A DNA stretch of 35,151 nucleotides from assembly GCA_002713215.1 (NCBI GenBank), contig PAVO01000043.1, positions 1 to 35,151 of the forward strand. Direction: 5' to 3'. Shown piece by piece: positions 1-15,400 of this stretch. The first letter of the stretch is position 1. Every line of letters starts with the position of its first letter. The position numbers and the translations under genes were made by a program. A model generated the notes under the pieces. The model ran no database searches. It worked only from the letters and a program-made list of their open reading frames with translations, and was not told the DNA's origin. This DNA comes from Crocinitomicaceae bacterium. Its GTDB lineage: Bacteria; Bacteroidota; Bacteroidia; Flavobacteriales_G; Salibacteraceae.

Positions 1-652
1 CCAACATTTCAAAACAACTTTTGCTGTATCCACTTTTTCCTGAAAGCGGTATTTCGAGTTTCTTGTCATTGACCTCAGCTATTAAAATGGATTCAGACTC
101 CTTTGCCTCATTTTTTGATCCAAGAATATACTTTCCCGGAACCAATTCTTTGATCCAGAATGAGCAATCGGAAATGGATGAAGAGTGATCTTCAATGGTT
201 AACGAAGAAGCATCAAGTTTATACAACCCACCTCCAATTATTGTGGATAACCACACGTTATTTTGATCGTCAACGACAATACAATTGGTCATGTTGGTTC
301 CAACCCGTTCGGTCATTTGTTCATTTAGGGCGATTTCATTAAACCCACCATCCCTCAAATTGTATAATCTACCATCTGATGAATAAGACCAAACATCATT
401 ATTGGGTGCCTTTTGAAATCCAACTAAAAAGTCTGTTTTTCTTTTTAATGGTATTCCTCTAAAGTCAAACCCCTCTAATACAATAAGGCCTGAACTAGCC
501 GCAAACCAAATTCTACCCATGTTATCTTCAACAGCTGCATACACCTGATTACTTGGGAGTCCATTATCATCTGAGAAGTGATTAAACAAAGCATCCTGCG
601 CTTGTGAATGGCCAGCCAGGACAGAAATCAATATGACTAAAAGGCGTCTCAA
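1..652 (-). CDS. Two-component-regulator-type beta-propeller protein, N-terminal part (gene runs off the left edge)
   Basis: The reading frame is open from 652 to position 1 and continues outside the window. It begins with a TTG directly after an in-frame TAA; no ATG precedes the hydrophobic leader, so TTG is the best start. The first ~18 residues (RRLLVILISVLAGHSQA) look like a signal peptide. The mature start contains FSDDNGLPSNQVYAAVEDN followed by GRIWFAASSGLIVLEG, the typical blade pattern of the ligand-binding propeller of Bacteroidota sensors, and later blades read NNVWLSTIIGGGLYKLD and DVWSYSSDGRLYNL. Such propellers normally sit in the periplasm ahead of a Y_Y_Y domain and a membrane-linked kinase or other output; that part is not visible. 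It resembles in architecture the gene at 29697-32231. Family assignment is fairly sure; the output domain is unknown. Confidence 0.75.
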   Translation of the reverse strand, partial: MRRLLVILISVLAGHSQAQDALFNHFSDDNGLPSNQVYAAVEDNMGRIWFAASSGLIVLEGFDFRGIPLKRKTDFLVGFQKAPNNDVWSYSSDGRLYNLRDGGFNEIALNEQMTERVGTNMTNCIVVDDQNNVWLSTIIGGGLYKLDASSLTIEDHSSSISDCSFWIKELVPGKYILGSKNEAKESESILIAEVNDKKLEIPLSGKSGYSKSCFEML

Positions 653-785
653 TTATTCAATTTGAAAGGAGGAAATTAGAACAATTTTTGACTTTTCAGA
701 TGACGAACGGTCGGTTTATTGAAATGAAATATATAAAGGGTTGGTTATTGTAAATGAAGGGTGCGTCAGGAAATTTGAGCGGTGA

Positions 786-1304
786 TTATTTTCTTGGTCT
801 TTTATAAACAGGCACGGTTGAACACGGTTCTCCATACATAAGGGATTTCACTACCGGTTGTAGTTTATTGGTAATAGCTACCCAGGCCGATTCAGAAACA
901 TCCCGGTCACCACAGCCTTTTATTACGATTCTTGAATCAAGAAATTCCTGAGCATTTATCTCATTTATGGAATCGATCAAAAGCTTTTGTTCAACTGCGT
1001 TCTTAGTACCGTAATTAATCGATAACGCTTTACCTAGCAGTGCTGTTGAAAGTAGCATATAGGCCCAGGATGGAATTATGGCATCGGCAGAACAATGTAT
1101 AGCCACATGCTTATTATTAAATTGGTCCCAGTTGTAAGTCTTAATGAACTCCCTGAAATCCTTTTCCTTAAGAGCTAATCCTTGCCAGAGATTTTGAGCT
1201 AAATCGTATTCTACAATTTCCTCTTCTGGAAAAAATTCTGCCATTTCAAGCTGAATTAACCCTGATTTTGCAACACGGTTTTCTATTTTTAATTCCTCAG
1301 GCAT
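786..1304 (-). CDS. DUF2480-like protein at the end of the suf operon
   Basis: This 172-aa protein has no signal peptide or membrane segment, so it is probably cytoplasmic. It starts at ATG 1304, nine bases after the DUF59 gene, and is the last gene of the suf operon. I recognise it as the DUF2480 type found beside suf genes in Bacteroidota (recalled, not searched). Visible features are an acidic N-terminal half (MAEFFPEEEIVEYDLAQNLWQGLALKEKDFREF), a central HVAIHCSADAIIPSWAYMLL stretch, and a C-terminal VIKGCGDRDVSESAWVAI segment followed by CSTVPVYKRPRK. Three cysteines lie in these conserved-looking segments, which would fit metal or cluster handling, but no motif proves it. Its constant company with Suf genes suggests a role in Fe-S protein maturation; the biochemical function is unknown. 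Confidence 0.7.
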   Translation of the reverse strand: MPEELKIENRVAKSGLIQLEMAEFFPEEEIVEYDLAQNLWQGLALKEKDFREFIKTYNWDQFNNKHVAIHCSADAIIPSWAYMLLSTALLGKALSINYGTKNAVEQKLLIDSINEINAQEFLDSRIVIKGCGDRDVSESAWVAITNKLQPVVKSLMYGEPCSTVPVYKRPRK

Positions 1305-1313
1305 TCAGATATT

Positions 1314-1625
1314 TTACATAAATCCCAATTCTAACTGGGCTTCTTCGCTCATCATGTCTTTCTCCCAAGCTGGTTCAAAAGTCATAGTAACCTTTGCCTT
1401 TTGTACAGCTTCGATTCCTCCAACTTTTTCTTCAACCTCTACAGGCAAACTCTCTGCAACCGGACAGCTGGGAGAGGTTAAAGTCATTAGAATTTCTGCA
1501 TTAAAGTCATCATCAATCTTAATATCATAAATTAATCCCAGCTCATAAATGTCAACTGGAATCTCCGGATCGTAGATCGTTTTTATTACCTCAATGATTG
1601 TATTTTCAAGAACTCGTTTGTCCAT
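1314..1625 (-). CDS. DUF59 / MIP18-family Fe-S assembly factor (SufT-like)
   Basis: This 103-aa protein is a stand-alone DUF59 domain. The hallmark DPEIPVDIYELGLIYDI stretch is at residues 19-35, and TSPSCPVAESLP contains the conserved reactive cysteine at residue 54. DUF59 proteins (SufT, PaaD N-terminus, eukaryotic CIA2/MIP18) assist maturation or transfer of Fe-S clusters in the cytoplasm. The gene starts at ATG 1625, four bases after sufE stops, and is followed nine bases later by the DUF2480 gene, so all three are surely on one transcript. The length matches minimal family members. The exact role (cluster carrier or targeting factor) cannot be read from the sequence, so no gene symbol is given. 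Confidence 0.9.
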   Translation of the reverse strand: MDKRVLENTIIEVIKTIYDPEIPVDIYELGLIYDIKIDDDFNAEILMTLTSPSCPVAESLPVEVEEKVGGIEAVQKAKVTMTFEPAWEKDMMSEEAQLELGFM

Positions 1626-1629
1626 TGTT

Positions 1630-2049
1630 TTATTCTTTTGCTGAGTATATCAGCGCATATGTTTTTATCTTTTTTATCATGGAAACCAATCCATTAGACC
1701 GTGTTGGAGAAAGGTGTTCCCTCAGCCCTATTTTGTCAACAAAATAAAGATCGGCATCCAGAATTTCGGCAGGTGTATTGTCCGAGAGAACCCGTACAAC
1801 CATCCCAACAATTCCTTTTGTAATTATTGCATCCGAATCGGCTTCAAAATGTAGCTTCCCTTGGCTAAAGGCAGGTATCATCCATACCCTGCTCTGGCAC
1901 CCCTTAACCAAAAACTCTTCAGTTTTTTTAGGTTCTTCGAGGCCTTCCACTTCTTTTCCAAGATCAATGATGTATTCGTATTTCTCCATCCAGTCATCGA
2001 ACATGGAAAACTCCTCAACTAATTCGTCTTGTCTTTCGTTTATCGTCAT
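1630..2049 (-). CDS. sufE: SufE, sulfur acceptor for cysteine desulfurase SufS
   Basis: SufE takes the persulfide sulfur from the active-site cysteine of SufS and passes it to the SufBCD scaffold. The 139-aa protein has the family core FSMFDDWMEKYEYIIDLGK near residues 14-32 and VKGCQSRVWM with the sulfur-accepting cysteine at residue 51, the same position as in E. coli SufE. The C-terminal LREHLSPTRSNGLVSMI segment is also typical. It starts at ATG 2049. The 42 bases separating it from the GxxExxY gene upstream are occupied by a repeat arm, so the original sufS-sufE junction seems to have been split by an insertion. Downstream, DUF59 follows after four bases. The assignment is secure. Confidence 0.97.
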   Translation of the reverse strand: MTINERQDELVEEFSMFDDWMEKYEYIIDLGKEVEGLEEPKKTEEFLVKGCQSRVWMIPAFSQGKLHFEADSDAIITKGIVGMVVRVLSDNTPAEILDADLYFVDKIGLREHLSPTRSNGLVSMIKKIKTYALIYSAKE

Positions 2050-2058
2050 CTTTAGTGC

Positions 2059-2091
2059 CTCAGAGTTACGCCAAGAAGGCGCAAAGAACCG
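2059..2091. repeat. Left inverted-repeat arm of the GxxExxY element
   Basis: This short GCGCAAAG/ACGCC-rich stretch fills the gap between the GxxExxY stop and the sufE start. It is made of imperfect CTTTGCG-type units and is roughly the reverse complement of the arm at 2470-2502 on the other side of the gene. The same units recur at 6225-6300. Confidence 0.75.
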
Positions 2092-2469
2092 CTAGAGTTT
2101 ATTTACCATCCTTTTTATTCCACGGGTCATTTTAGACACATGAAAGTTTAACAACAATCCTAATTTATAGTCCCCGAGTTTTAAATAAGTTAAGAGCTGA
2201 GCTTCGTGAACCGGCGTAAATGCTTCCACAGTTTTAAGCTCAAGTACAACCTTGTCTTCCACCAAAATATCCATTCTGTACCCATGGTCCAGCTTAATGT
2301 CCTCATAAATAATGGGCATTGGCATTTCCTGATGGATTTTAAAACTCTCTTTCTTTAACTCGTAAGCAAGACATTCGCGGTAAGCCGACTCCAAAAGCCC
2401 AGGACCTAGTGCTTTGTGTACCTTAATGGCACAACCAATCACTATTTCAGATATCCTATTTTCATCCAT
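2092..2469 (-). CDS. GxxExxY family protein, inserted between sufS and sufE
   Basis: This 125-aa protein carries the name-giving motif in GPGLLESAY (residues 22-30). It also has a PD-(D/E)XK-like core with GYRMDILV (Asp67) and VVLELKTVE (Glu77, Lys79), followed by HEAQLLTYLKL. The family is common in Bacteroidota, often in many copies per genome; its biochemical function is not established, although the core resembles nuclease folds. Start is ATG 2469 and stop is TAG at 2092. Both sides are flanked by short inverted repeat arms (2059-2091 and 2470-2502), and the gene interrupts the otherwise tight sufS-sufE-DUF59 run. This suggests that gene and arms arrived as a unit. A direct role in Fe-S assembly is unlikely; it is probably co-transcribed only because of where it landed. 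Confidence 0.9.
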   Translation of the reverse strand: MDENRISEIVIGCAIKVHKALGPGLLESAYRECLAYELKKESFKIHQEMPMPIIYEDIKLDHGYRMDILVEDKVVLELKTVEAFTPVHEAQLLTYLKLGDYKLGLLLNFHVSKMTRGIKRMVNKL

Positions 2470-2502
2470 TTCTCTGCGCTTCTTTGCGGCCCTTTGCGTA
2501 AC
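2470..2502. repeat. Right inverted-repeat arm of the GxxExxY element
   Basis: The 38-base gap between the GxxExxY start codon and the sufS stop is almost entirely this arm, built of TCTCTGCG, TTCTTTGCGG and CCTTTGCG units. It is the approximate reverse complement of the arm at 2059-2091, giving a gene bracketed by inverted repeats. Confidence 0.75.
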
Positions 2503-2507
2503 AATAC

Positions 2508-3749
2508 TTACCCAAACATCTTTTTAACCCGTTTCAACCCTTCAATTAACCGATCGACTTCTTCGAACGTATTATAAAACGAAAAGGATGCACGAACAGT
2601 TCCCGGGATCTCATATCGATCCATAATGGGTTCAGTACAATGATGTCCTGTGCGAACAGCAATTCCCAATTTATCCAATATGGTTCCGGTATCATAAGGA
2701 TGAACTCCTTTCAGCAAAAACGAAATCACGGAAGCTTTGTTTTTTGAAGTTCCATAGAATTCCATGTCTCCCGATAGCCCTTCACTTTCAAACTGTTTCA
2801 TTGCGTAATCAAGCAGTTCACCTTCATATTGGCCAATACTTTCAAAACCAATTTCAGGTTGGTTACAATAATCTAAAGCTGCTTTTAAGCCAAGTGCTCC
2901 GGCAATATGAGGTGTTCCGGCTTCAAACTTAAATGGGAGTTCATTGTAAGTTGTCTTTTCAAAGCTTACCGATTTAATCATATCACCCCCGCCCTGATAG
3001 GGTGGTAATTTGTTCAACCATTCCTCTTTTCCATAAAGTACGCCAATTCCTGTTGGGCCATAAAGTTTGTGCCCCGAAAACGCATAAAACTCGCAATCCA
3101 AATCTTGTACATCTACCTTCATATGAGGCAGAGCTTGTGCACCGTCGAGCAATACCGGAGCTCCTTTTTTATGAGCTAGTTCAATAAGTTCCTTTACGGG
3201 ATTTATGGTTCCTAGTGTATTAGAAACGTGATTTAAGGCGACCAGCTTTGTTCGTTCTGAAACAAGGCTTTCATATTCCTCAAGAATAATTTCGCCAATG
3301 TCATTAATGGGGATTACTCTGAGTGTGGCACCAGTGTATTCACAAAGCATTTGCCAGGGAACAATGTTAGAATGGTGTTCTAATCCCGAAATAATGACTT
3401 CATCTCCCGAACTTAAAATACCTCTAAATCCATTTGCGATTAAGTTTATCCCATCGGTTGTTCCTTTGGTAAAAATTACTTCGTGATCAAACGAAGCATT
3501 AATGTGTTCTTGTATGGTCTTACGTGCAGCCTCATATTTTACAGTGGCTTCAGCCGAGAGATGGTGTACTCCCCTATGAATGTTACTGTGCTCATACGAA
3601 TAATAATGACTGATGGTATCAATTACCAACTGTGGTTTTTGGGCTGAGGCCGCATTGTCCATGTATACCAATGGATATCCATTTACTTCCTGGTGAAGAA
3701 CGGGAAAATCCTTTCTGATTTTGTCAATATTTAATGGAGTAGTGTTCAT
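2508..3749 (-). CDS. sufS: SufS, group II cysteine desulfurase
   Basis: SufS is a PLP enzyme that removes sulfur from L-cysteine, giving alanine and a protein-bound persulfide that SufE collects. The protein has 413 residues from ATG 3749. An upstream in-frame TTG at 3773 would add eight residues, but they lie in repeat DNA and are not conserved family sequence. Visible features are YMDNAASAQKP near the N-terminus, EHHSNIVPWQ, DGAQALPH, the PLP lysine in FSGHKLYGPTG (about residue 228) and the catalytic cysteine in RTGHHCTEP (about residue 371), then GTVRASFSFYNT. It is flanked by two intruding genes: the four-helix-bundle gene upstream and the GxxExxY gene downstream. The identification is secure. 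Confidence 0.97.
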   Translation of the reverse strand: MNTTPLNIDKIRKDFPVLHQEVNGYPLVYMDNAASAQKPQLVIDTISHYYSYEHSNIHRGVHHLSAEATVKYEAARKTIQEHINASFDHEVIFTKGTTDGINLIANGFRGILSSGDEVIISGLEHHSNIVPWQMLCEYTGATLRVIPINDIGEIILEEYESLVSERTKLVALNHVSNTLGTINPVKELIELAHKKGAPVLLDGAQALPHMKVDVQDLDCEFYAFSGHKLYGPTGIGVLYGKEEWLNKLPPYQGGGDMIKSVSFEKTTYNELPFKFEAGTPHIAGALGLKAALDYCNQPEIGFESIGQYEGELLDYAMKQFESEGLSGDMEFYGTSKNKASVISFLLKGVHPYDTGTILDKLGIAVRTGHHCTEPIMDRYEIPGTVRASFSFYNTFEEVDRLIEGLKRVKKMFG

Positions 3750-3752
3750 ATT

Positions 3753-3790
3753 TGAATATTGAACAAGGAACAAGGAATTTCGAATGTTGA
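3753..3790. repeat. Short arm of the four-helix-bundle element (CAAGGAA units)
   Basis: This stretch lies between the sufS start and the stop of the four-helix-bundle gene. It contains TGAATATTGAA, two copies of the 7-mer CAAGGAA (3764-3777) and GAATTTCGAATGTTGAA. It is inverted relative to the TTCCTTG array at 4163-4218 on the other side of the gene. Similar copies lie at 8749-8780 and 16306-16343. Confidence 0.75.
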
Positions 3791-3794
3791 AAGC

Positions 3795-4157
3795 TTACTC
3801 ATTATTCATGTTTTTCTTGGCAGTTTCAATGCTTTTGACAAAAATTGAAATGAGCTGGTTATTTTCATCAAGTATTGATGTCAGCTTTCCTGTGTCTGAT
3901 AGAAATTGAGAACGCTCAATAATTTTTAGGTTCATTCGAGTTTCTCTTAATTCTTTTAATGCAATTTTCATCTTGTGAACGAAATCTTTTCTGGATTCCG
4001 CTCCTTGGGCCTCAGCATAGTTTAATGAAGGAGAAAGCCCGGAGCGCACAAGTTGGTTAGAAAGATAGTTTGAGACATAGTCTTTAGACATTGATCTCGT
4101 CAACTCTATAATAAGCGCAGAATATTCTATTAATCTATCTTCTAAATCAAAATTCAT
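3795..4157 (-). CDS. Four-helix-bundle protein (23S rRNA intervening-sequence type)
   Basis: This 120-aa, almost wholly helical protein fits the small four-helix-bundle family first named from proteins encoded in 23S rRNA intervening sequences. Typical traits are the early LIEYSALIIELTRSM helix, then LSNQLVRSGLSPSLNYAEAQGAESRKDFVHKMKIALKELRE, with the turn that family members keep (SGLSP.NYAEA), and a final long helix. The molecular role of free-standing members is not established; a relative (Avd) works with diversity-generating reverse transcriptases, but none is present here. The gene sits between sufD and sufS, with 7-mer tandem repeats in opposite orientation on both sides (3753-3790 and 4163-4218). 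It therefore looks like cargo of a small repeat-bounded insertion rather than a Suf component. Start is ATG 4157. Confidence 0.88.
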   Translation of the reverse strand: MNFDLEDRLIEYSALIIELTRSMSKDYVSNYLSNQLVRSGLSPSLNYAEAQGAESRKDFVHKMKIALKELRETRMNLKIIERSQFLSDTGKLTSILDENNQLISIFVKSIETAKKNMNNE

Positions 4158-4162
4158 TTAAC

Positions 4163-4218
4163 TTCCTTGTTCCTTGTTCCTTGTTCCTTGTTCCTTGTTT
4201 CTTGTTCCTTGTTCCTTG
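4163..4218. repeat. Eight tandem copies of the 7-mer TTCCTTG
   Basis: Eight consecutive 7-base units (TTCCTTG; the sixth is TTTCTTG) fill the gap between the sufD stop and the start of the four-helix-bundle gene. The opposite side of that gene has only two units, in inverted orientation. Perfect short units in tandem are prone to copy-number change by slippage. The array lies in the leader between two co-transcribed genes. Confidence 0.95.
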
Positions 4219-4226
4219 TTGATATT

Positions 4227-5456
4227 CTAAAGCTTAAACTTTTCTTCAACCAGTCCTTCTACATGTTCTTTAAACGACTCCAATTTAATCTCTTCCAGCA
4301 CGTCAAATACAAATGCCCGTATCATCATTTTTTTTGCACTTACTTCACTCACTCCTCTCGACCTTAAATAAAATACCGCTTCCTCATCCAGTTGCCCGGT
4401 GGTAGAACCATGAGAGCATTGAACATCGTCAGCATAAATCTCAAGTTCGGGTTTGGAGTTTATGGTGGCATCGTCCGAAAGCAAAATGTTTTGATTGCTC
4501 TGAAACGCATTAATCTTTTGAGCATTGGGCTGAACCATAACCTTACCATTAAAAACGGCTGTTGATTTATCGTCCATCACCCCTTTGTAGTTTTCACTTG
4601 AATAGCAATTCGGAGCAATGTGATCAACGTAAGTATGATTATCAAAGTGCTGGGAGCCATAGGCCAAGTAGACCCCGTTAAGAATTGATTCGCAATTCTC
4701 CCCTTCTACAGCTATATTCAGGTTGTTTCGTAAAACTTTACCTTCTAGACTGATGGTATGAATGGCGAATTTGCTGTCCCGTTGCTGATTCACCTGGGTA
4801 GTATTGATCAGAAAATTTTCATCACCACCTGCCTGAAGTTGATGCAAGCTTAGCTGAGCATTTTCATGAAGTTTTAGTTCGGATACAACGTTGTAAAAAT
4901 TTCCTTCCTGCCCATTGTGATGCCAGTTAAAAATAAAATTAGCGGAGGCATTTGGCTCCAATTCAATTTCAATCCGTGGCTGCACCTGAATGTTGTTATT
5001 GACGGAAAGAAAATTAACCTGGATTGACTTGTCAATTTCAACACCAGCCTTTATCTTGATTTTTATTCCAGAAGTAAAATAGGCCGTATTAAGCGCACTG
5101 AAAAATTCGTTTTGATAATCGACCAAAGCTTCTTCAACCTCTTCCACCGATGTTATTTCAATGCCCTCTTGTATTTCTCCAACAGGTGACTGGAAATAAC
5201 CATTGATACACTCAATGTGAAGCGCACGTTCATTAATAGAAACTACTTCCTCGCTTCCCTCAAACGGTTCAACCGAGAATCTACCATTGAGAATTTTAGT
5301 AAGACGGGTATATTTCCAGTATTCATCACGAGTAGTGGGGAAATCCAAATTTTCCAAAGCCAACTCTGCTGCCTTACTTACTCCGGAAATCCCTTCGGAA
5401 ACCCGAAATGATTCTAAGAACAATTCTTTCTTATCCGCTGTCAAAGTCTGCGACAT
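4227..5456 (-). CDS. sufD: SufD, Fe-S scaffold subunit
   Basis: SufD pairs with SufB in the SufBC2D complex on which Fe-S clusters are built. The 409-aa protein shows the beta-helix type core and the C-terminal family signature: KVMVQPNAQKINAFQSNQNILLS, then YADDVQCSHGSTTGQLDEEAVFYLRSRG, with Cys347 and His349 equivalent to the conserved Cys-His pair of E. coli SufD. Start ATG 5456 overlaps the sufC stop by one base (TAATG), which implies tight coupling. N-terminal residues 1-100 are less conserved, as is usual. Downstream, the operon is interrupted by the TTCCTTG array and the four-helix-bundle gene before sufS. The identification is secure. Confidence 0.96.
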   Translation of the reverse strand: MSQTLTADKKELFLESFRVSEGISGVSKAAELALENLDFPTTRDEYWKYTRLTKILNGRFSVEPFEGSEEVVSINERALHIECINGYFQSPVGEIQEGIEITSVEEVEEALVDYQNEFFSALNTAYFTSGIKIKIKAGVEIDKSIQVNFLSVNNNIQVQPRIEIELEPNASANFIFNWHHNGQEGNFYNVVSELKLHENAQLSLHQLQAGGDENFLINTTQVNQQRDSKFAIHTISLEGKVLRNNLNIAVEGENCESILNGVYLAYGSQHFDNHTYVDHIAPNCYSSENYKGVMDDKSTAVFNGKVMVQPNAQKINAFQSNQNILLSDDATINSKPELEIYADDVQCSHGSTTGQLDEEAVFYLRSRGVSEVSAKKMMIRAFVFDVLEEIKLESFKEHVEGLVEEKFKL

Positions 5457-6214
5457 TAGGCTGTTTCTTTTTCCGGTTTAGTTAACCAGTCGTATCCCTT
5501 TTCCTCTAACTCCAATGCCAGGTCTTTGCCTCCTGTTTTTACAATTTTCCCCTTGTAAAGTACGTGCACAAAGTCGGGAACTATGTAATCCAATAACCTT
5601 TGGTAATGTGTAATTACAATGGTTGCATTGTCCTTGGTTTTTAATCGATTAACACCATTGGCAACAATTCGAAGTGCATCGATATCCAACCCTGAATCTG
5701 TTTCATCCAGTATGGCAAGTTTTGGCTCTAACATAGCCATTTGAAAGATTTCGTTTCTTTTCTTTTCACCTCCGGAAAACCCAACATTAACAGATCTATT
5801 GGCCAGGTTTTCTTTTAGCTCAACCATTTCCTTCTTTTCCTTAACCCTGCCCAGAAATTCCTTGGCCGACATTTTACCCAACCCTTTGTAATCCCGAATT
5901 TCATTAATCGCGGTCTTGAGGAAGTTAATGTTACTTACCCCAGGAATTTCAATGGGGTATTGGAATGCCAAAAACATTCCTTCGGCGGCCCTTTCCTCCG
6001 GTTCCAATTCCATAATATCTTTCCCGTTAAAGGTTATTTCTCCACCTTCAATTTCGTACTCAGACCTCCCGGCAATAACTGAAGCCAGTGTACTTTTTCC
6101 GGAACCGTTCGGCCCCATAATGGCATGAACTTCTCCAGCTTTCACCTCAAGGTCTAATCCATTAAGGATATTCTTCCCTTCTATACTTGCTTTTAAATTC
6201 CTAATTGATAGCAT
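5456..6214 (-). CDS. sufC: SufC, ABC-type ATPase of the Suf scaffold
   Basis: SufC is the soluble ABC ATPase of SufBC2D and drives the conformational changes needed for cluster assembly. With ATG 6214 it has 252 residues. A longer reading to 6241 would begin with MRISAKQQN, encoded partly by a repeat insertion (6225-6300), and is rejected. Walker A GPNGSGKST is at residues 34-42, the Q-loop glutamine in FLAFQYP at 85, the signature FSGGEKKR at 146-153, Walker B LAILDE at 166-171 and the switch histidine in VITHYQR at 203. It overlaps sufD by one base. Upstream, 93 bases filled with repeat DNA separate it from the 175-aa gene, so the repeat lies in what was probably a short sufC leader. Confidence 0.97.
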   Translation of the reverse strand: MLSIRNLKASIEGKNILNGLDLEVKAGEVHAIMGPNGSGKSTLASVIAGRSEYEIEGGEITFNGKDIMELEPEERAAEGMFLAFQYPIEIPGVSNINFLKTAINEIRDYKGLGKMSAKEFLGRVKEKKEMVELKENLANRSVNVGFSGGEKKRNEIFQMAMLEPKLAILDETDSGLDIDALRIVANGVNRLKTKDNATIVITHYQRLLDYIVPDFVHVLYKGKIVKTGGKDLALELEEKGYDWLTKPEKETA

Positions 6215-6224
6215 ATTTTGTTGT

Positions 6225-6300
6225 TTCGCAGAGATACGCAAAGTATTCGCAGAGGTACGCAGAGGTTTTTCTTTGCGTCTTCTTTGCGGTTCTTCGCGTT
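6225..6300. repeat. Gene-less copy of the CTTTGCG / CGCAGAG inverted repeat
   Basis: Here a left arm of CGCAGAG, ACGCAAAG, CGCAGAGG and ACGCAGAGG units (about 6227-6264) is followed after a short T-run by a right arm of CTTTGCG, TCTTCTTTGCGG and TTCTTCGCG units (6271-6300). The unit types and orientation are the same as those around the GxxExxY gene, but no gene lies between the arms. It fills most of the 93-base gap upstream of sufC. Confidence 0.8.
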
Positions 6301-6307
6301 ATAACTC

Positions 6308-6835
6308 TCATTTGCTTGAAAACTGATCTTCTTTGTTTTTAAATAAAACATTGAAAGTAGTTAAACTTCCATAGCTTCTCGTAATGTATTGCTGAAGGTG
6401 AACCTTCTCCTCGTCTGTTAATTTGGAATGACTGTTTATGTTTTGTTCCAATACCCTTAACCGATCCCGAACCATTACAATTTTGTGAAAAAACTGCTGA
6501 ATAGGAATTTCCTTGGATTGCAAATCCGGGTTTCCCGGATTTAGAACCATAATTCCTCCTTCCCATTTGTCACCAAGATCTACAACCTCTTGCAGCCCAT
6601 TAAATTCTTCCAGTATGTTCTTAAGAAGGCTTGCAACTTCAGTAACTGACTTACCATCTGCCTGAGGGGCTTCACCATCTCCTTCTTCCAAAACTTCAAA
6701 ATCGTCTGTCAGCCTGGAAAAAGTCATTTCACCGGCTCGCTTAAAGATTACTGTAAACCCTGAAACCGAACTAGAGGTGATTACCCCTTCTCCATATCTT
6801 TCATGATCTACCTTCGTTCCTGTTTTGATTTCCAT
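6308..6835 (-). CDS. Unknown 175-aa protein between sufB and sufC
   Basis: I do not recognise a named family. The start is taken at ATG 6835, eleven bases after the sufB stop; a longer reading to 6937 would overlap sufB by about 90 bases and is unlikely. Residues 1-45 (GTKVDHERYGEGVITSSSVSG, then VIFKRAGEMTFSR) look like the small beta-barrel (Tudor/SH3-like) found at the C-terminus of UvrD/PcrA helicases and similar proteins. Next comes an acidic linker, EVLEEGDGEAPQAD, and then an alpha-helical part (about 58-175) ending with KNKEDQFSSK. No cysteine is present, so it does not bind a cluster by itself. Its place inside the sufB-sufC pair suggests a role with SufBCD, perhaps as an adaptor; this is inference from position only. 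Confidence 0.75.
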   Translation of the reverse strand: MEIKTGTKVDHERYGEGVITSSSVSGFTVIFKRAGEMTFSRLTDDFEVLEEGDGEAPQADGKSVTEVASLLKNILEEFNGLQEVVDLGDKWEGGIMVLNPGNPDLQSKEIPIQQFFHKIVMVRDRLRVLEQNINSHSKLTDEEKVHLQQYITRSYGSLTTFNVLFKNKEDQFSSK

Positions 6836-6846
6836 TGTTTGATTTT

Positions 6847-8304
6847 TTATCCTACGCTTCCTTCCAACGAAATATCCAAAAGCTTTTGCGCCTCCACCGC
6901 AAATTCCATTGGCAATTGATTCAGTACGTCCTTGCAATAACCGTTGACAATTAAACCTATGGCCTTCTCCGTATCTATCCCTCGTTGGTTACAATAAAAT
7001 ATTTGATCCTCGCCAATTTTAGAAGTGGTAGCTTCATGCTCCACTTTGGCGCTTTTGTTTTGAGTTTCTATGTAGGGAAAAGTATGTGCACCGCAGGTAT
7101 CTCCCAAGAGCAATGAATCGCACTGCGAAAAATTTCTCGCATTATGCGCACTTTTATTGATCTTCACCAATCCACGGTAGGAGTTATTGCTTTTACCCGC
7201 CGAAATTCCCTTAGATATAATGGTTGACTTGGTGTTTTTTCCAATGTGTACCATTTTGGTTCCTGTATCGGCCTGCTGAAAATTATTGGTTACGGCTACA
7301 CTGTAAAACTCACCCACTGAATGGTCTCCTTTTAGCACACAACTTGGGTATTTCCAGGTAACCGCAGAGCCAGTTTCTACCTGAGTCCAGGAGATTTTGG
7401 AATTACTTCCTTCGCACAAACCTCGTTTAGTTACAAAATTGTAAATCCCCCCTACTCCGTTTTTATCACCAGGATACCAGTTTTGAACCGTACTGTATTT
7501 TACTTCAGCATCTTTGTGCGCAACAATTTCGACGATAGCAGCGTGCAATTGATTTTCGTCGCGCATGGGTGCCGTACAGCCCTCCAAATAGCTTACATAG
7601 CTACCCTCATCAGCAATAATTAATGTCCTTTCAAACTGGCCCGTATTGGCTTCATTAATCCTAAAATAAGTGGACAATTCCATGGGGCAACGAACCCCCT
7701 TTGGGATATAGCAAAACGATCCGTCAGTAAATACTGCCGAATTCAATGTAGCGTAATAATTGTCATTAACAGGAACAACCGTTCCCATGTATTTTCTTAC
7801 CAGATCCGGATGGTTTTTAACCGCTTCCGAAAACGAACAAAATATAATTCCCTTTTCTGCCAGTGTTTCCTTAAAGGTAGTGGCTACCGATACTGAATCC
7901 ATAACCACGTCTACGGCAACACCCGAAAGTCGCTTTTGTTCTTCCAATGATATTCCCAGTTTATTAAATGTGTCCAGCAATTCCGGATCAACCTCATCGA
8001 GGCTATTTAGTTTCTTTTTGGGCTTTGGGGCTGCATAAAAATGCAATTCCTGAAGGTCTATTTTGGGATAATTGACATGGGCCCATTCAGGTTCCTGAAG
8101 CGATTCAAACTTCTCTAGGGCAGCCAGTCTAAATTCCAATAACCATTGAGGTTCATTTTTCTTAGCCGAAATGTATTTAATGATATCTGCATTTAACCCT
8201 TTGGGGGCTAAATCAGATTCAATATCGGTGGTAAAACCGTATTTGTAGTCCGAGTTTATTTGCTCATCAAGAGCGGCATCTTGCTGTGCGAGTTTATCAG
8301 CCAT
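6847..8304 (-). CDS. sufB: SufB, Fe-S cluster scaffold
   Basis: SufB is the main scaffold subunit of SufBC2D, receiving sulfur from SufSE and building the nascent cluster. The 485-aa protein starts at ATG 8304, nine bases after the sufA-like gene. Diagnostic segments are [21 protein letters not shown] (about 197-216), [20 protein letters not shown] (231-250), the central beta-helix, and [12 protein letters not shown] with Cys404, equivalent to the key Cys405 of E. coli Suf[22 protein letters not shown] near 423-443 contains the conserved His and Glu ligand candidates. Length and motifs match full-length SufB. The identification is secure. Confidence 0.98.
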
Positions 8305-8313
8305 GGCACGAAA

Positions 8314-8640
8314 TTAAATAGAGAAACTCTCTCCGCAACCACAGGTTCGTGAGGCATTGGGGTTGTTAAATTCAAAGCCTTTTCCATTTAATCCACCACT
8401 GTATTCCAGGGTAGTTCCTGCCAAATACAAAAAGCTTTTTTTATCTACTGCGATTTTAATTCCCTGATCTTCAAAGATTTTATCGTCCGCTTCTGCAGCT
8501 TCCGCAAAATCCATTTTATAAGTCAATCCGGAACAACCGCCTCCTTCTACACCAACCCGAATTATGGAACCAGCAGGAATTTTATCCTCTGCCATCAACC
8601 GGGATACTTCTGTTTTTGCTTCTTCTGATACTTTAATCAT
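8314..8640 (-). CDS. sufA: SufA/IscA-type (HesB family) Fe-S carrier, first gene of the suf operon
   Basis: A-type carriers hold an Fe-S cluster or iron and hand it to target proteins. The 108-aa protein starts at ATG 8640; an alternative GTG two codons upstream (8646) is possible but less likely. The three ligand cysteines are present: Cys36 in GGGCSGLTY, and Cys100 and Cys102 in RTCGCGESF. The usual ASRTCGCG C-terminus and LNGKGFEFNNPNA segment are intact. It is the first gene of the operon, directly behind the promoter and palindrome at 8682-8713, and nine bases before sufB. The symbol is given because of its position as head gene of a suf operon; sequence alone does not separate SufA from IscA or ErpA. 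Confidence 0.92.
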   Translation of the reverse strand: MIKVSEEAKTEVSRLMAEDKIPAGSIIRVGVEGGGCSGLTYKMDFAEAAEADDKIFEDQGIKIAVDKKSFLYLAGTTLEYSGGLNGKGFEFNNPNASRTCGCGESFSI

Positions 8641-8681
8641 ACGCACAATTCTATTACCAATCAGCTTTAGATAAGCGTTTG

Positions 8682-8713
8682 CAAAGTTATTTAGAATAGT
8701 TCTAAATAAAAAC
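8682..8713 (-). promoter_or_regulatory. suf operon promoter with overlapping 23-bp palindrome
   Basis: On the minus strand TAACTTTG (8689-8682) matches the Bacteroidota -7 element TAnnTTTG exactly and would start transcription some 35 bases before the sufA ATG. Immediately upstream, and overlapping it, is a perfect palindrome: arm TTATTTAGAA (8687-8696), centre TAG, arm TTCTAAATAA (8700-8709). A poor -33 element (GTTT near 8713-8710) lies at its far side, so a protein bound here would block the promoter. The core TTTAGAA-N3-TTCTAAA resembles operators of Fur-superfamily (Irr-type) regulators as I recall them. Which regulator binds here is inference. Confidence 0.7.
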
Positions 8714-8729
8714 TTTTAGCACAAATAAA

Positions 8730-8747
8730 ATACCTAATTGTAGGTAT
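8730..8747. promoter_or_regulatory. Palindrome ATACCTA-N4-TAGGTAT upstream of the suf operon
   Basis: A perfect inverted repeat with 7-base arms and an ATTG centre lies about 40 bases upstream of the suf -7 element. An almost identical palindrome (TACCTA-TTTC-TAGGTA) lies just upstream of feoA at 18376-18391. Finding the same arms and spacing before two iron-related operons suggests a shared operator. The bound protein is unknown. Confidence 0.6.
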
Positions 8748-8748
8748 A

Positions 8749-8780
8749 TGAATATTGAATGACGAACAAGGAATTTTGAA
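8749..8780. repeat. Solo copy of the TGAATATTGAA / GAACAAGGAATTT repeat
   Basis: This short stretch shares TGAATATTGAA and GAACAAGGAATTT with the arm at 3753-3790 beside the four-helix-bundle gene, but there is no such gene here. It lies between the suf promoter region and the HXXEE-like gene. Confidence 0.7.
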
Positions 8781-8847
8781 CTGGATGGTTCATTATTCGA
8801 TAACTTCGACATCAACAAACTACTGAACTAAACTTTAAATTTGAGAA

Positions 8848-9430
8848 GTGGAAGCAAAATACAAAAATTGGCCAAAGCTTATTCTTCCTGCATCAATGCT
8901 GGTGTGCCTACTCTTCTACCTGAAACAAGGTTGGTTTTTTAGAAACAACGACTGGGTGTGTTGGATTCACTTGCCCATACTGATGATCCATCAATTTGAC
9001 GAGTATGTTTTTCCCGGTGGATTTAAGGAGTGGTTCAACCTTCACTTCTGGAAGTCGAATGACGTAGATTTCCCATTGGACTGGAAGACATCAGCCAAGG
9101 TTAATGTGTTGGGCTGGATTCCGGTAACGTTGATGGCATTGGTTGGAAGCAAATGGAGCGGTATGTTCCTGTTCTTCCCCTTCATTGGTATTATGGGGGG
9201 CCTTCCACAATGCCTGGTATCATGTCACTCTTACAGTGGTTGACAAATACTCTCCAGGAGTAATTACCAGCTTGCTATTGTATATTCCCCTGGCAGTGTA
9301 TAGCTCTTATCTTTTTTACTCGACTGGTTCGATTTCGGTTTGGGAGTTAATAATAGCATTTTCCGTTGCCGGGATAATTCATTTCCGTCTTGTTAAACGG
9401 TTTCGAAATAAGATGGAAAACAATAAATGA
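8848..9430 (+). pseudogene. HXXEE-like membrane protein, frameshifted in a G6 tract
   Basis: Two overlapping frames together encode one ~193-aa protein. Frame one starts at GTG 8848 and runs through hydrophobic segments, the HQFDEYVFPGGFKEWFN motif (His48, Asp51, Glu52; HXXEE family, here with Asp for the first Glu) and FFPFIGIMG. After the six Gs at 9195-9200 it changes into nonsense and stops at 9243. The correct continuation AFHNAWYHVTLTVV, SPGVITSLLLYIP and two more membrane segments lies in another frame to 9430. Removing one G restores the join M-G-A-F-H-N. The HXXEE family is thought to be a metal- or ligand-binding membrane domain of unknown function. The break may be a sequencing error, a true mutation, or slippage-based on/off switching. 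Confidence 0.8.
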
Positions 9431-9440
9431 TCTAAAGTTA

Positions 9441-12400
9441 CTATCGTTGAATAGTAATTCTCTCAAAATAGACCTGCTCCCCAATTTCTATTTTTAAAAC
9501 ATAGACGCCTGAAAACACTTTTTTCATGTTAAATACCATTGCGTTGTAACCCATCCGGGTTAATGCCGAGTGTTCAACTATAGTTCTTCCCCTAGAATCA
9601 TAAATTGTCACCTGAATTTTTTCTTCCTCTACACCTTCAAAACGTAAGGTGAACTGGCCATTGTTTGGGTTTGGATATAAACTAAACTCCAAACCGCAAT
9701 TTTTGGTTGTAATTTCATAATTCGACTCATTGGAACAGCCATTTACGTCAACCACCTTTAGTGTTACAGAAGAGGTTCCCAACGGTACAGAATAAAAAGG
9801 TAAGCTGAAATTCATTCCTGTAGTATCCTTATTCCAGATGTAGAATTTCATTCCTCGATTGGCAAAAAGCTTCAATGAATCACCCTGACAAAATGAAGTA
9901 TCTCCACCAATTGTTGGGATAGGTTTGGTAAACACATTGATGAATTGGGTTTTTGAAGACTGACACAAATTAGAGTCTGTGTATTGATATTCAAAATAGT
10001 ATTTGGTCTTATTGGGTAAAACATCAACTTGCGTAACGGCCTTGCCATTTACCAAATAAGTGCCGCCTTTTGGCAAGCCATTAGATAATTCAATGGATGT
10101 TTCGTTAGAAATACAAAATGGTGGTAAGGAGTCAAGTGTTATCACCGGATTACCATTTATTCTAAAAACCACGGAGGAGGTGTCCATACCACATTCACTG
10201 GCTAATGTGTAGTGAAGTGTGGTACTTCCTAGCTTTAACTGAGTGGCTGAAAAGAGGGTATCTTCAAATACACCGGCACCAAAATATTTTCCACCGGAGG
10301 GAATTCCACCTTTCAACTTCACTGAATCCTGACCTTCACAAACATCGGGTTGTATTAGTGATGTTATTTTCAAAATTGAATCTACAACTACATTTCTAAA
10401 TGCACTGTCAGAACACATTCTTGAATTTGTATATACATACTTCAATTTGAAATTCCCATAACCTGCAGTTTTAGCGTGAAACTCGTTGCTAACAACTCCA
10501 ACACCATAATAAACCCCACCGGAGGGCTGACCTTGTGAAAGGCGATAAGATGCAGCTTCTATGCATTGAATTGGTAAAGAATCAAGGGAAACAATGGGTA
10601 CCGAATCAATAGTTACAACTATGGAGTTGGAATCGCTACAACCATTGGAATCTACAAAAACGTATTTCAGGGTATCATTTCCTACACCAACTAAAACCGG
10701 ATTATATAAAGAATCGTTCAAAACACCTCGCCCCTTATACTTCCCTCCTGTTGGAGTACCATTGTTCAACTTAAAATATGGAGTATTTAAGCAAACCGAT
10801 CCCAACGTAGTTAGGTTAACCTGTGGTAGTTCATTTACCCTAACCAACGAGAAAGATGAGTCAGAGCAGCCAAAAGAATTGCTAAACTTATATTGCAGGC
10901 GATAGAGACCTGTATCAGCCGGACTAAAGATTCCACCTGAAACATTTTTCCCAGAATAATTTCCACCCAAAGGAGCGCCTCCGGAAAGTACCATGCTTTC
11001 GTTTTCACACATCGGAGAAATACTGGAGAAAGCAACAACAGCAACACTGTCAACTCTTACCGATTCAGCAACAGAATCGGAACAACCAAAGGCATTGGTG
11101 AAGGTATATTTTACTGTATCAGTAGCATTCCCTAATAATGTAGGAGTATAAATACCCGATAACACTTGTGTACCACTGTAATTACCTCCTAACGGAAGGC
11201 CCCCAGCCAACATCACCGGACTCGCATTTGCACAAATTGAATCAAATAATGAAAAACTTAAACTGGTTACTGAGTCGACACGAATGGAATCGGTAACATT
11301 ATTTGTGCACCCATTTCCTCCAACCATAGAATAGCTAATGGATTGATATCCGGATGAAACTATTCCGGGATTAAAGTAATTCCCCGATACACCGCTACCT
11401 GAAAACTGTCCTCCAGATGGTTGGGTAGTTAATAATAGCGAATCAGCATTGGCACAAATGCTATCATTTAAAGAGAAGGTAATTTGAGGCAGGGTATCTA
11501 CAAGTATGGATTGGCTAGCAGAGTCTTTACATCCTTTACTATTCTCATAGACGTACTTAATGGAATACGAGCCGGGGCCGGCGAGTTGGGAACTAAAAAT
11601 CGTATCGTTAATCACCCCCGTTCCAGAATATTTTCCACCGACTGGTGTTGCAGCTTTTAATGTAAAGACTGGTGCTCCGAAACATAGGTTTGCCAATCTA
11701 CTGAAAACAACTGTTGGTGTAGAATCAACCGTTAGGTTTTGGGTAGCACTGTCGGTACACGCATTCAAGTCGGTGTACACATAGGAAATGGTGTGTGTCC
11801 CAATTCCTAGAGAACCAGGGTTAACAGAAGTAGTTGTAGCGCCATTTAACCGGTAAGAACCACCAGAAGGCGAACCACCGGCTAGATTAAACGAAGGAGT
11901 ATTTATACAAACACCTGCCATGCTCGAAAGTGTGACCATAGGCTGGGCATATACCTGAATTATTGAACTGGCTGTATCGGAGCATGAATTGGTATCAATA
12001 AGGGTGTAGGTAACCCAATGAAAGCCGGACCCCGCGATGGAGGGTGAAAATACATTGGACGAAACCCCAGTACCGCTATAGGTACCTCCACCCGGACTTC
12101 CTCCCGCAATAGCAAAGCTTTGAGAACCGGCACAAACACTTGACAAAGATGCCATGGATACACTGGGTGCCAAATTAACAACCTGAATTGAAGTATCGGA
12201 GTTAGAACAATTGTTAGAGTCGGTAAAGGAATAGCTTATTGTGTGCGTGCCTACTCCAGCTATATTGGGCTTAAAACTACCTGAGCTAACACCAGTTCCC
12301 GAGTATATACCAGAACCGGGAGACCCACCGCTAAGAACAAGGGAATCCAGGTTAGAACATACAGGATTTAAAGGGCCAAACGAAACAGTCGGCAATGGAT

Positions 12401-15400
12401 TTACAGTTATCCATTTGGAAGCACTGTCCTGACAATTATTGCTGTCGGTATATGAATATTTTATTGAATGTGTCCCTATACCAGCTACCACTGGATTAAA
12501 GTTTACACCACTCACACCTTTTCCAGAATAGGTCCCCGAAATTGGGCTACCTCCGGAAAGGGTCAAAATTCCATTGTCAATACAAATTGCTCCTAAACTT
12601 GTAAATGATACGGTTGGCTGCCCATAGACCACTTGCGAAGACGTATCTGAATTGGTACAATTATTTGTATCGGTAAAAATGTAGCTGAGCAAATGGGTCC
12701 CTGATTTAGCTGACGAAGGACTAAAATCACCTGAAAACACTCCAAATCCGGTATATATTCCTCCACTTGGGCTACCAGTGTTTAAAGAGAAATCTTGGGC
12801 GTTTTCACAAACAGGTGTCAGAGTTCCAAATGATACTGTAGGCAATGGATTTACAGTGATGGATTTAACTGAGGTATCTGAACAACCTTTCGAATCAGTG
12901 AATTTATAGGTAATCGCGTGGGTTCCTATACCAGCTATCGCCGGGTCGAACATACCTGCACTTACACCACTCCCGGAAAAAGTTCCTCCTGAAGGGCTCC
13001 CTCCACTCAGAGTAAATTTTACCTGATCAATACATACATCATTCTGGTTTGAGAGATTAACGGTAGGTAAGCCAAAAACCTGGATGGTATTAGTAGAACT
13101 GTCAGTGCACCCGTTGGAATCGCTATGCTTGTACGTAATGGTATGGGTTCCTATTCCTGTAGACGCAGGGTTGAAATTGGAACCTACCACCCCATTTCCT
13201 GAATAGGTCCCAGGTGTGGGAGCCCCCCCGGACAAAGCAACTAAGCCATTGTCGATACAAACATGGGCAATGGCAGCCAGACTTACGGTTGGTTGTGCAT
13301 GAACCAGTTGAGGCTGAACGGCTTTATTAGAACATGAATTAGCATCAGAATAGGTATATGTAATGGTATGGGTTCCCGCACCTGCAGTTGAAGGACTAAA
13401 GCCACCTAAACTTACCCCCGTCCCCGAGAACACTCCTCCGCTTGGACTTCCACCTCCTAAAGAAAAGCCGGGCGCTCCTGCACATATGGGTGACAATGAA
13501 CTCAGGATAACATTGGGTATGCTATCAACCTGGATATACTTTGTTGATGTATCTGCACCACAGCTACTAATAACATATTTTACCTCATGATTGCCGACAC
13601 CATGAAAAGCCGGATTAAAAACGGTGAAACCGGTATTATTAATATAGTAGGTGCCTCCTACCGGTAGGCCACCGGATAAAGTAAAACTGGAATCATTGAA
13701 ACATACATTGGGGAAGGTATCGAGGGAACTGGTAGGCGCACCAACCATAACAGTTGTATAGGCTGTATCGGGACATTGTCCATTATTATTGGTGTAGCCC
13801 ACAGCAAAAGTCCCAGTCCCGGAAATTGAGGGATAAAAATTGGAACCTATTACTGCTGAACCAAAATACACTCCTCCACTTGGGCTTCCGTAGGGCAATA
13901 AACTCACCGAAAAGGTACTTACGCATTGGACTGGTACACCAGAAAGGGATGAGCCAGGTGTAGAGTCTACCTGTATGGTTTGAGTAGCAGTATCGCTGCA
14001 GCCAAAATCTGTATAAACATAATGGATATTGTGTGCTCCGGAACCTGCTACACCCGGATCAAATATGGAGTCGTTGATCATTCCAGGACCAACATAACGA
14101 CCACCTAAAGGGAAACCTCCGGTTAGCTTATAACTTGGTGCATTTTCACATACAGCTGATAGAGCCGCAAAATATGCAGTGGTACCCCCTACCCCTAAAC
14201 TCTTTGTTGCCGAATCGGTACATCCTATTGAATCGGAATAGACATAGGTTATTGAATGGGTTCCTAGGCCAGCAAAATTGGGATTAAAAATACTATCCGA
14301 AGTAATTCCCTTCCCCTTGTAGATTCCACCTTTGGGAATACCTTGATTTAAAGTAACATTAGATTGACCAAGGCATATCGACGGAAAAGAGGATATAGAA
14401 ACAGTTGGCAGTGGATTAATAGTAACTTTTATAGATTGTGAAGTATCCAAACAGCCTTCATCAGACACTAAAACTGAATACTCAGCCTTTAACTTTGCAT
14501 TGTAAACACTATCCGTCTGAAGAAATAATGGCCCACCATTTCCTAGCCACTGGTACTTTAAATTCGGGTCGTTATTCGACCATAACTTAACGGAATCGCC
14601 AACACAAACCTGAGTCACTCCCGAATATATCTCCGCCGTATCCGCATCACTACAATCGGTAATTTTTACAATGAAAGCATCGGTATTACCTGCCCCAAAA
14701 GCATGTAGCTTTCCGCTAAAAACAAATGGTGGTGATGCAGCTGCCGTCACGTAAACATTATTGGAAGTATCAATTGCTATATCCTCGGCTAAATTTTGTA
14801 AAAATGTTTGGCTGGTACCGGTAACAGTCCACTTAAAGTTACCACTCGAATCGACTAACGAAATAAATATGTTAGGTGCCGCATTCGCACCTAAAACTGT
14901 ATCCTTTCCAAATTTACCTAAACTAGCTCCAAACATCCCACTTAAACCAGCATTTCCTTGGTTGTCAACCCCTACTATAAAACATCGGTCATTGTAATTA
15001 GAGGTTGAAGGTGTACCTAACCCACCAAAGGCCTTTGCCCATTTCGCGGTACCACTGGTATCGAACATAACCACATAATTGTCCCAGCTGTTGCCGCTAT
15101 AAGTATTAGTGCTTAGGTTTATGGTGCCGAATTTGACAGTATAGTTGAAACGACCCGAAACAAAAAGGTGGTTAAATTTATCCACGGCGATTCCAAAAGC
15201 CTCATCGAAGTTATTGGTTCCATGCTTTTTTGCCCATACCGCATTTCCTGCTGTATCAAACTTCGCAACAAATATTCTAGATGTAGTAGTTCCTCCAGTC
15301 GTAAGTGTCACATTCCCCAACTTGAGAGTATCAAAGAAATTTCCACTGGTATAAAAGTTTCCGCTTGCGTCACTCGTCACATTGAATGTACGATCAATGC

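Follow-up and report, generated by a model that had tools for sequence, protein, structure and literature searches.

In the REPIN/RAYT systems a protein gene is bounded by short repeats, and the protein, RAYT, is a Y1 HUH transposase. Insertion sequences and MITEs have inverted ends, and a target duplication of 9 bp is common for DDE transposases. The PD-(D/E)XK nuclease fold is used by other mobile elements, namely by homing endonucleases of the I-Ssp6803I type and by TnsA. Small open reading frames between complementary ends are also found in the intervening sequences (IVS) of 23S rRNA. The Coxiella IVS contains an S23 open reading frame whose complementary ends are cut by RNase III; its mobile origin is only conjectured and the source of 23S intervening sequences is stated as open (PMC4990558).

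The names of the protein families TIGR04256 and PF13366, which match the GxxExxY proteins, carry no function. No account of repeat-armed units of these families was found in the searchable open literature, and the literature on MITEs, Nostoc and repeat sequence yielded nothing on such units. A general account of S23/IVP units with repeat arms was likewise not found, the literature that was found being concerned with the IVS. The feature described here is a GxxExxY gene bounded by two arrays of a short word in the suf operon of a Crocinitomicaceae bacterium. It is probably one copy of a minimal mobile element driven by the GxxExxY nuclease, which would act via the words of the arms.

The GxxExxY unit of the window

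The window, i.e. the whole stretch of 35,151 nucleotides that was analysed (contig PAVO01000043.1), contains a suf operon on the minus strand in the order sufB, sufC, sufD, a four-helix-bundle gene, sufS, the GxxExxY gene and sufE (Table 1). SufB, SufC, SufD and SufS are identified by reading of the sequence and gene order, not by family search. The GxxExxY gene is the only one of its kind in the 5.03-Mb source genome. It is the sole open reading frame of at least 60 aa inside the unit, and the only profiles that it matches are TIGR04256 (E 1.2e-44, 151.4 bits, curated cut-off 35) and PF13366 PDDEXK_3 (E 2.9e-42, 144.2 bits, cut-off 22). No known transposase or recombinase domain was found in the unit with Pfam (at E 0.001) or NCBIfam. 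The Y1 HUH transposase is absent from it, the sole Pfam match at E 0.001 being PF13366, a nuclease fold.

Table 1. Positions of the GxxExxY unit, its gene-less counterpart and the neighbouring genes in the window
Feature	Position	Strand	Description	Basis
sufE	1630..2049	-	downstream of GxxExxY unit	PF02657 2.6e-46
Downstream arm	2059..2097	+	four words, some degenerate; spacers 3,4,3; strand opposite to upstream arm	
Downstream-arm words	2059-2065, 2069-2075, 2080-2086, 2090-2097	+		by eye
GxxExxY gene	2092..2469	-	125 aa, PD-(D/E)XK nuclease-like; E27, D67, E77, K79	ORF list, profiles, AF2 model
Upstream arm	2472..2503	-	words CGCAAAG/CGCAAAG/CGCAGAG; spacers 3,3; GTTA outside	
Upstream-arm words	2492-2498, 2482-2488, 2472-2478	-		
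sufS (cysteine desulfurase)	2508..3773	-	upstream of GxxExxY unit	sequence reading and operon order
Four-helix-bundle unit, downstream arm	3754..3780	+	AACAAGGAACAAGG words	
Four-helix-bundle (S23/IVP) gene	3795..4157	-	between sufD and sufS	TIGR02436 1.5e-23, PF05635 3.8e-15
Four-helix-bundle unit, upstream arm	4160..4225	.	tandem TTCCTTG	
sufD	4227-5456	-		sequence reading and operon order
Gene-less element	6227..6298	.	between sufC and next gene, upstream of sufC	
Gene-less element, first half	6227-6264	+	four words, spacers 3,4,3	
Gene-less element, second half	6271-6298	-	three words, spacers 4,3, facing first half	
sufB	6847-8304	-		sequence reading and operon order

The initial annotation, made from the letters of the window, had described the product as a GxxExxY protein of 125 aa with a nuclease-like core at D67, E77 and K79, and the profiles bear this out. 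The residues are conserved as well: D67 and K79, together with E27, are present in all 67 copies compared and E77 in 66 of 67, three of the 70 copies being set aside for in-frame stops. In another comparison, of 44, the E/D/ExK residues are invariant. The dN/dS ratio lies between 0.028 and 0.145 in 13 of 17 pairs of GxxExxY genes (dS exceeds 1 for five of these 13 values), and the remaining four pairs are saturated in dS. Judged by these ratios, the gene is under purifying selection.

The AF2 model of the window protein has a pLDDT of 95.1 and a pTM of 0.88. With this model as the query, the nearest solved fold is SSO0001 (4ic1), which we take to be a Cas4. Foldseek gives E 4.2e-3 and a probability of 0.99 for its chain B, and chain G superimposes with Z 9.6 and an rmsd of 3.6 over 99 aligned residues. 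Next come a protein resembling restriction endonucleases (3ijm), with Z 8.3 and an rmsd of 3.2 over 99 aligned residues, and others; among these is Hjc (1gef), with Z 7.0 and an rmsd of 3.2 over 87. No Foldseek match of the model reached E 0.001 or better, and the protein has no sequence relatives in the PDB at E 1 or better. Only three chains reach a Z of at least 8, and the ranking therefore tells little beyond the superfamily. The predicted fold is PD-(D/E)XK, with SSO0001 as the nearest structure.

The start of the gene directly follows one arm and its stop codon lies inside the other, where the innermost word has one additional base and overlaps the stop codon. The 7-bp words of both arms point inwards. 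The two arms score 33 against each other, the maximum in 100 dinucleotide shuffles being 29. Inverted arms are present where the initial annotation had placed them, but they are arrays of a spaced short word, not simple terminal repeats. The gene-less copy that it had also reported was found about 3.8 kb from the unit. The doublet CGCARAG-N(1-5)-CGCARAG has six matches in the 5.03-Mb genome, all of them at the unit and the gene-less pair, the degenerate downstream arm of the unit not matching this pattern; the reversed control doublet has no match across the same genome.

Two other features of the window lie outside these units. The gene upstream of sufC at 6308-6835 (MEIKTGTKVDHERYGEGVI) matches nothing in Pfam or NCBIfam at E 0.001. 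A repetitive, secreted-looking protein of 2216 aa with many GG.Y.G.GV repeats, recognized by eye, is encoded at 9441-16091.

Word arrays of the arms

GxxExxY matches, 84 in total, are carried by 37 of 60 relatives. The flanks of 70 of these matches were analysed, 14 weak or broken ones being left out. A script searched for a 7-mer that recurs in both flanks, one mismatch being allowed, and a locus was counted when each arm had at least three words. Inverted arms were found in this way at 47 of the 70 loci, compared with 10 of 70 for direct arms and four of 70 for shuffled flanks. A second set consisted of 80 named GTDB loci from Bacteroidota, Cyanobacteria, Planctomycetota, Proteobacteria, Acidobacteria, Chloroflexi and some labelled Archaea. 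Two of these had short flanks and were dropped, and the corresponding counts are 46 (inverted), 15 (direct) and eight (shuffled) of 78. That arms always flank the gene, a point that the initial annotation had proposed as a check, applies to these majorities but not to the 23 of 70 and 32 of 78 loci with fewer words, several of which are one-armed or broken.

The word varies from unit to unit. CACAGAG, CGCAGAG, CGCAAAG, CACAAAG, CGCAGAT, CACGAAT, CACATAG, CAGGATT, CACTAAA, ACGAAA and others were found, and at the outer ends of 64 upstream and 68 downstream arms the sequence is near TTTTAACC(A/G)C. In the 57 units with at least three words per arm, the words agree between the arms at 0.89 of their letters (1176/1316). 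Spacers of equal length agree at 0.53 (124/235), which is close to the 0.54 (43/79) of non-corresponding spacers. The arms are accordingly not simple terminal inverted repeats, a structure that was rejected because the words match and the spacers match no better than unrelated ones. The lengths of the spacers, in contrast to their letters, are kept: 107 of 131 mirror positions have spacers of one length, the expectation being 31.5. Patterns such as 2-4-2, 3-5-3 and the lopsided 1-1-3 are often common to both arms of one unit; L008, with 3-4-1 and 3-4-3, is an exception.

A conserved stem is not favoured either. Mirror-partner words are 0.894 alike, other words 0.895 across the arms and 0.889 within an arm, and 1560 of 2000 reorderings match or beat the likeness of the mirror partners, although this test is limited in that the words were preselected within one mismatch of the unit word. 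Since mirror partners show no extra likeness, recognition is favoured over base pairing. We read the word arrays as the signature of a protein that binds a specific sequence in a fixed geometry, and not as that of a stem.

The arms were also compared between loci (138 of 150, 12 being left out). The upstream arm scores 31.5 against the downstream arm of its own unit, 18.2 against arms from other loci and 22.3 if the orientation is wrong. Ranked among all 138 downstream arms, the own one comes first in 42 loci and in the top five in 68; it does not come first more often because common words occur in many units. Between loci, the score of the upstream arm of one against the downstream arm of the other climbs from 16.4 for protein identities below 30% to 36.0 for those of 85% or more, and the Mantel correlation of arm similarity with protein identity is 0.413, reached in 0 of 999 permutations. 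From this correlation, the arms and the gene are inherited together. Recognition of the words by the protein is compatible with the correlation and is not proven by it.

Several units depart from the common form. In L081 (genome G004) the downstream arm and its surroundings, 3' of the GxxExxY gene, are present in three tandem copies. The outer flanks of the G047 units L044, L055, L063 and L067 look like an inverted repeat whose ends are similar to GTTACTGTTCAGGT, and at these loci GxxExxY units may take older palindromes as targets. L223-L226, on contigs labelled viral, have longer, A+T-rich words, which in L223 and L224 are of the TACTTAAAATT type; outer GGTCGCTTCGC palindromes are present in L223, L224 and L226.

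Movement of the unit

Over 483 bp the two copies L053 and L059 of one genome are 89.6% alike; their surroundings are unrelated, and the likeness ends at the outer arms. At the first of two Nostoc sites a 1.6-kb query recovers the same insertion, joined to both flanks, in 25 of 53 genomes, and decayed or short remnants are also present. The copy at the second site in G074, G080 and G063 is 80-81% alike, and the match ends exactly at the arm edges (query positions 556-1031).

The second site is the ureB/ureC junction, the genes being named from sequence reading. Of the 53 Nostoc genomes, G074 and G080 match the whole query and have full units, and 14 are empty, with flanks that adjoin and two matches that overlap by 9 bp. 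These 9 bp, which contain the ureC start codon, are TAACTCATA in the empty sites (three of the 14 were read) and in the right copy of the occupied sites, and TAAGGCATA in the left copy; 7 of the 9 letters agree. A 9-bp target duplication is possible at this junction, and the start codon within those letters would be retained anyway. Among the target-site duplications looked for, this imperfect one is the only instance: a clean duplication was not visible by eye at the first Nostoc site or at the sufS/sufE, X/Y and Y/Z junctions described below. The ureB/ureC junction also holds solo arms in other Nostoc genomes.

The sufS/sufE junction, which is occupied in the window, is empty in G009 and G022, where stop and start overlap. 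In their congeners G017 and G025, and likewise in G004, it holds a single protein type, the members of which are 76-79% identical to one another and have CGCAGAT-like words. The window protein, with the word CGCAAAG, is 46-48% identical to these three and 67% identical to the protein of L004, which stands at another place. A single, vertically inherited insertion was rejected on these identities; the two protein types point to two insertions at one junction. In the family of the window genome, the X/Y junction is occupied in G031, G032 and G002. It is empty in G024 and G026, as read from the sequence, and in G008, G016, G027 and G029, where the flank matches lie 13-48 bp from each other. At Y/Z, the junction that follows, G024 and G026 have a unit and G032 has none.

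The copies at unrelated sites of a single genome, the empty and occupied states at four junctions and the second Nostoc site all indicate that the unit has moved. On these comparisons the gene and its arms very probably form a mobile unit that is defined by the arms, and the unit has been inserted as a block, in most cases co-directionally with transcription. As the comparisons are between species and not between strains, they revealed no recent movement.

Two arrangements look like short-distance jumps. One is the gene-less pair 3.8 kb from the window unit. The other is formed by L006, L013 and L035 and by L029 and L030, similar units at two adjacent junctions in related genomes.

Genomic setting and distribution

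Both neighbours are co-oriented with the GxxExxY gene at 40 of 61 and 50 of 65 loci (90/126 overall). They are both opposed at two of 61 and five of 65 (7/126), and mixed at 19 and 10. The median gap is 83-89 bp to a co-oriented gene before the unit and about 53 bp to one after it, little beyond the length of an arm. At three of the four junctions compared, the insertion is right at the stop/start junction or at the start codon. At the first Nostoc site, the one site where this was seen, the element end supplies the stop codon of the preceding gene, the frame being read by eye. The bias in orientation would fit a promoterless unit that is read from host transcripts; it would also fit selection against antisense copies.

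The GxxExxY genes are widespread, with at least 587 confirmed places in the GTDB genome scan. A phage origin was rejected, as the window protein has no match in 50,697 phage records at E 1e-5, and so was plasmid carriage as the main route (7 of 72,556 plasmid records). Six relatives are on contigs labelled viral. Of these, L223, L225 and L226 adjoin host-like genes according to sequence reading, and a search with the flank of L223 found only two contigs, both already in the set.

Four-helix-bundle units

The four-helix-bundle (S23/IVP) gene of the window, 1.3 kb from the GxxExxY unit, is itself bounded by inverted TTCCTTG arrays. Genes of this kind are present in 48 of 60 relatives. Among 31 loci, made up of 30 listed loci of the relatives and the window copy, 18 have three or more words in each arm when the arms are taken as inverted, six when they are taken as direct and three after shuffling of the flanks. 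The arm words are more varied than those of the GxxExxY units. The two kinds also share insertion places: one gene junction holds the four-helix-bundle unit L121 and, in different genomes, the GxxExxY units L009 and L192. By sequence reading, a sufB-like gene is followed by a four-helix-bundle unit in L118 and L124, where sufC comes next, and in L125, where the next gene is related to the window gene at 6308-6835. The suf operon, which in the window (1630-8304) has three units or remains of units, is a hot spot.

The four-helix-bundle units have such arms without a nuclease, and arm anatomy alone does not, therefore, prove that the nuclease is the mover. This suggests a way of life common to both kinds of unit and weakens the case for a nuclease being required.

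The same units bring in the alternative that fares best, an RNA-level element like the 23S IVS, in which the arms would pair in the transcript and be trimmed by an RNase III-like enzyme, the open reading frame being a passenger and the spread being due to rare recombination or an unknown route. The shared arm anatomy of the S23 units agrees with it, as do the Coxiella IVS, with an S23 open reading frame bounded by complementary, RNase III-cut ends (PMC4990558), and the position of the units in operons, co-oriented in 90 cases and opposed in seven. The arms of the window unit are paired in the minimum-energy fold of its RNA (z -2.32), and the gene-less pair forms a hairpin as RNA (z -4.55 for the minus and -6.04 for the plus strand). 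Equal spacer lengths also suit a stem. No Rfam family was found at the gathering score in window positions 1-12000. Against pairing as the conserved property stand the mirror-partner words, which are no more alike than others, and the spacers, which remain unpaired at an agreement of 0.53, like that of non-corresponding ones. Solo arms, moreover, persist without a partner, and an RNA-level element leaves the conserved active site of a DNA-nuclease type unexplained. This alternative is rather unlikely.

Gene-less copies and solo arms

Triple-word patterns match in 14 of 21 gene-positive Bacteroidota genomes and in one of nine gene-negative ones, as well as in all 10 Nostoc genomes; the reversed triple-word controls gave 0 and 2 matches over 40 genomes. 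With the Nostoc rows and one simple tandem array in G004 excluded, 175 Bacteroidota word clusters are listed, of which 31 are at a gene and 144 are gene-less. On these numbers and with the solo arms of Nostoc, arms without the gene make up most of the sites, which counts against the reading of the initial annotation. Its minimal self-moving element is retained in part, as a discrete unit of gene plus arms that has moved, but gene-less arms predominate. The gene-less clusters are read as non-autonomous derivatives because of the 14 of 21 gene-positive versus one of nine gene-negative genomes, a comparison that concerns co-occurrence with the gene and not dependence on it.

L278 is a gene-less derivative of 125 bp. 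The two ends of the ORF region are still present in it, as would be expected if a full unit had suffered a deletion. Its left end lies inside a gene that is intact in L284, and the rest of that gene is missing in L278. Neighbouring clusters less than 250 bp apart are convergent in 18 cases, divergent in five and in the same direction in 11, all five divergent pairs being from one array-rich genome. In the sequences compared, gene-less arm pairs and solo arms have the same ends as the full unit.

Many of the Nostoc copies are single arms. In L290-L309 unpaired four-word arms are conserved at orthologous places, for example at ureB/ureC. Solo single arms at orthologous places are not accounted for by simple transposition.

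The predominance of gene-less copies (144/175) would also be expected if the arms were MITE-like ends moved by a transposase encoded elsewhere, with GxxExxY as cargo or as a word-binding autoregulator. The occurrence of two unrelated proteins, GxxExxY and the four-helix bundle, in the same style of arms agrees with such an external transposase, and a 9-bp duplication suits the DDE type. It is nevertheless unlikely, since word clusters are found in 14 of 21 gene-positive but one of nine gene-negative genomes, and since the GxxExxY gene is under purifying selection with a conserved active site. The words, furthermore, vary in step with the GxxExxY protein across several phyla and a large number of word families, which would be hard for one transposase.

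A homing reading, in which the gene-less pair would be the nuclease target and the gene would be copied into the palindrome loop after the cut, splitting its own site, is very improbable: gene-less facing pairs are common, the full unit resembles a facing pair with the gene in the loop and I-Ssp6803I is a precedent for the fold, but the empty sites that were read carry no arms, so that the arms entered there together with the gene, and the L278 derivative points to deletion from a full unit.

Proposed mechanism

The preferred reading is that of an element of 0.45-0.5 kb, in which a single PD-(D/E)XK gene lies between two inverted arms of 3-4 spaced words each. That the nuclease itself drives the unit through these words seems somewhat likely. 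The GxxExxY protein would recognize the words of its own unit, cut at these words and at the target, and insert full units; it would also mobilize the gene-less derivatives in trans. Such an element would be comparable to an insertion sequence and its MITEs, or to RAYT and its REPINs, with a nuclease in the place of the transposase. Insertion into operons would be tolerated if the preceding gene obtains a stop codon from the element end, as seen at one site, if a duplicated or retained target preserves the start codon of the following gene and if the unit is read from the host transcript.

A broader proposal is a good deal more tentative. It holds that there are nuclease-only transposons, in each of which a lone PD-(D/E)XK protein of about 120 aa would recognize self-specific heptamer arrays at the two ends and insert the unit at stop/start junctions of operons, with a target duplication of about 9 bp. 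Their word code would have changed along with the enzyme from phylum to phylum, and beside them would stand a class in which a four-helix-bundle protein has the corresponding role, with the 23S intervening sequences as the members recognized to date.

Once linked to a mobile unit that carries word arrays of its own, the GxxExxY proteins acquire a testable role, and a class of short repeats is explained. The pairs of protein and word constitute a natural set that might reveal a code of DNA recognition. The anatomy common with the four-helix-bundle units leads to a testable answer on the source of the 23S intervening sequences.

Comparison with known systems

The nearest solved folds are found in the Cas4, Hjc and lambda-exonuclease branch, a similarity of fold alone; GxxExxY differs from its members in having neither a Foldseek match at E 0.001 or better nor a PDB sequence match at E 1. 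The I-Ssp6803I-type homing endonucleases and TnsA resemble it in that a nuclease of this fold serves a mobile element. Unlike them, the GxxExxY unit has no intron, partner transposase or visible fixed target, and it brings its own arms.

The 23S rRNA IVS is similar in having a small open reading frame between complementary ends in a transcribed locus, and a four-helix-bundle unit lies 1.3 kb away in the window. The window unit, however, is between sufS and sufE and not in rRNA. Its open reading frame is not of the S23/four-helix-bundle type, which is that of the neighbouring unit at 3795-4157, but has an unrelated nuclease fold, and in the GxxExxY units the words, not a stem, appear to be conserved.

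With REPIN/RAYT the units have in common one protein gene bounded by short repeats and gene-less copies that outnumber the gene in the genome and are mostly found where the gene is present. The protein is here a PD-(D/E)XK nuclease, in contrast to RAYT, and the ends are spaced word arrays instead of REP hairpins. Insertion sequences and their MITEs share with the units the inverted ends, the insertion of the unit, the possible 9-bp duplication at one site and the internally deleted derivatives. The GxxExxY unit differs from them in being only about 0.45-0.5 kb long, with a single 125-aa nuclease and without a known transposase or recombinase domain, and in being inserted at the stop/start junctions of operons, mostly in one orientation.
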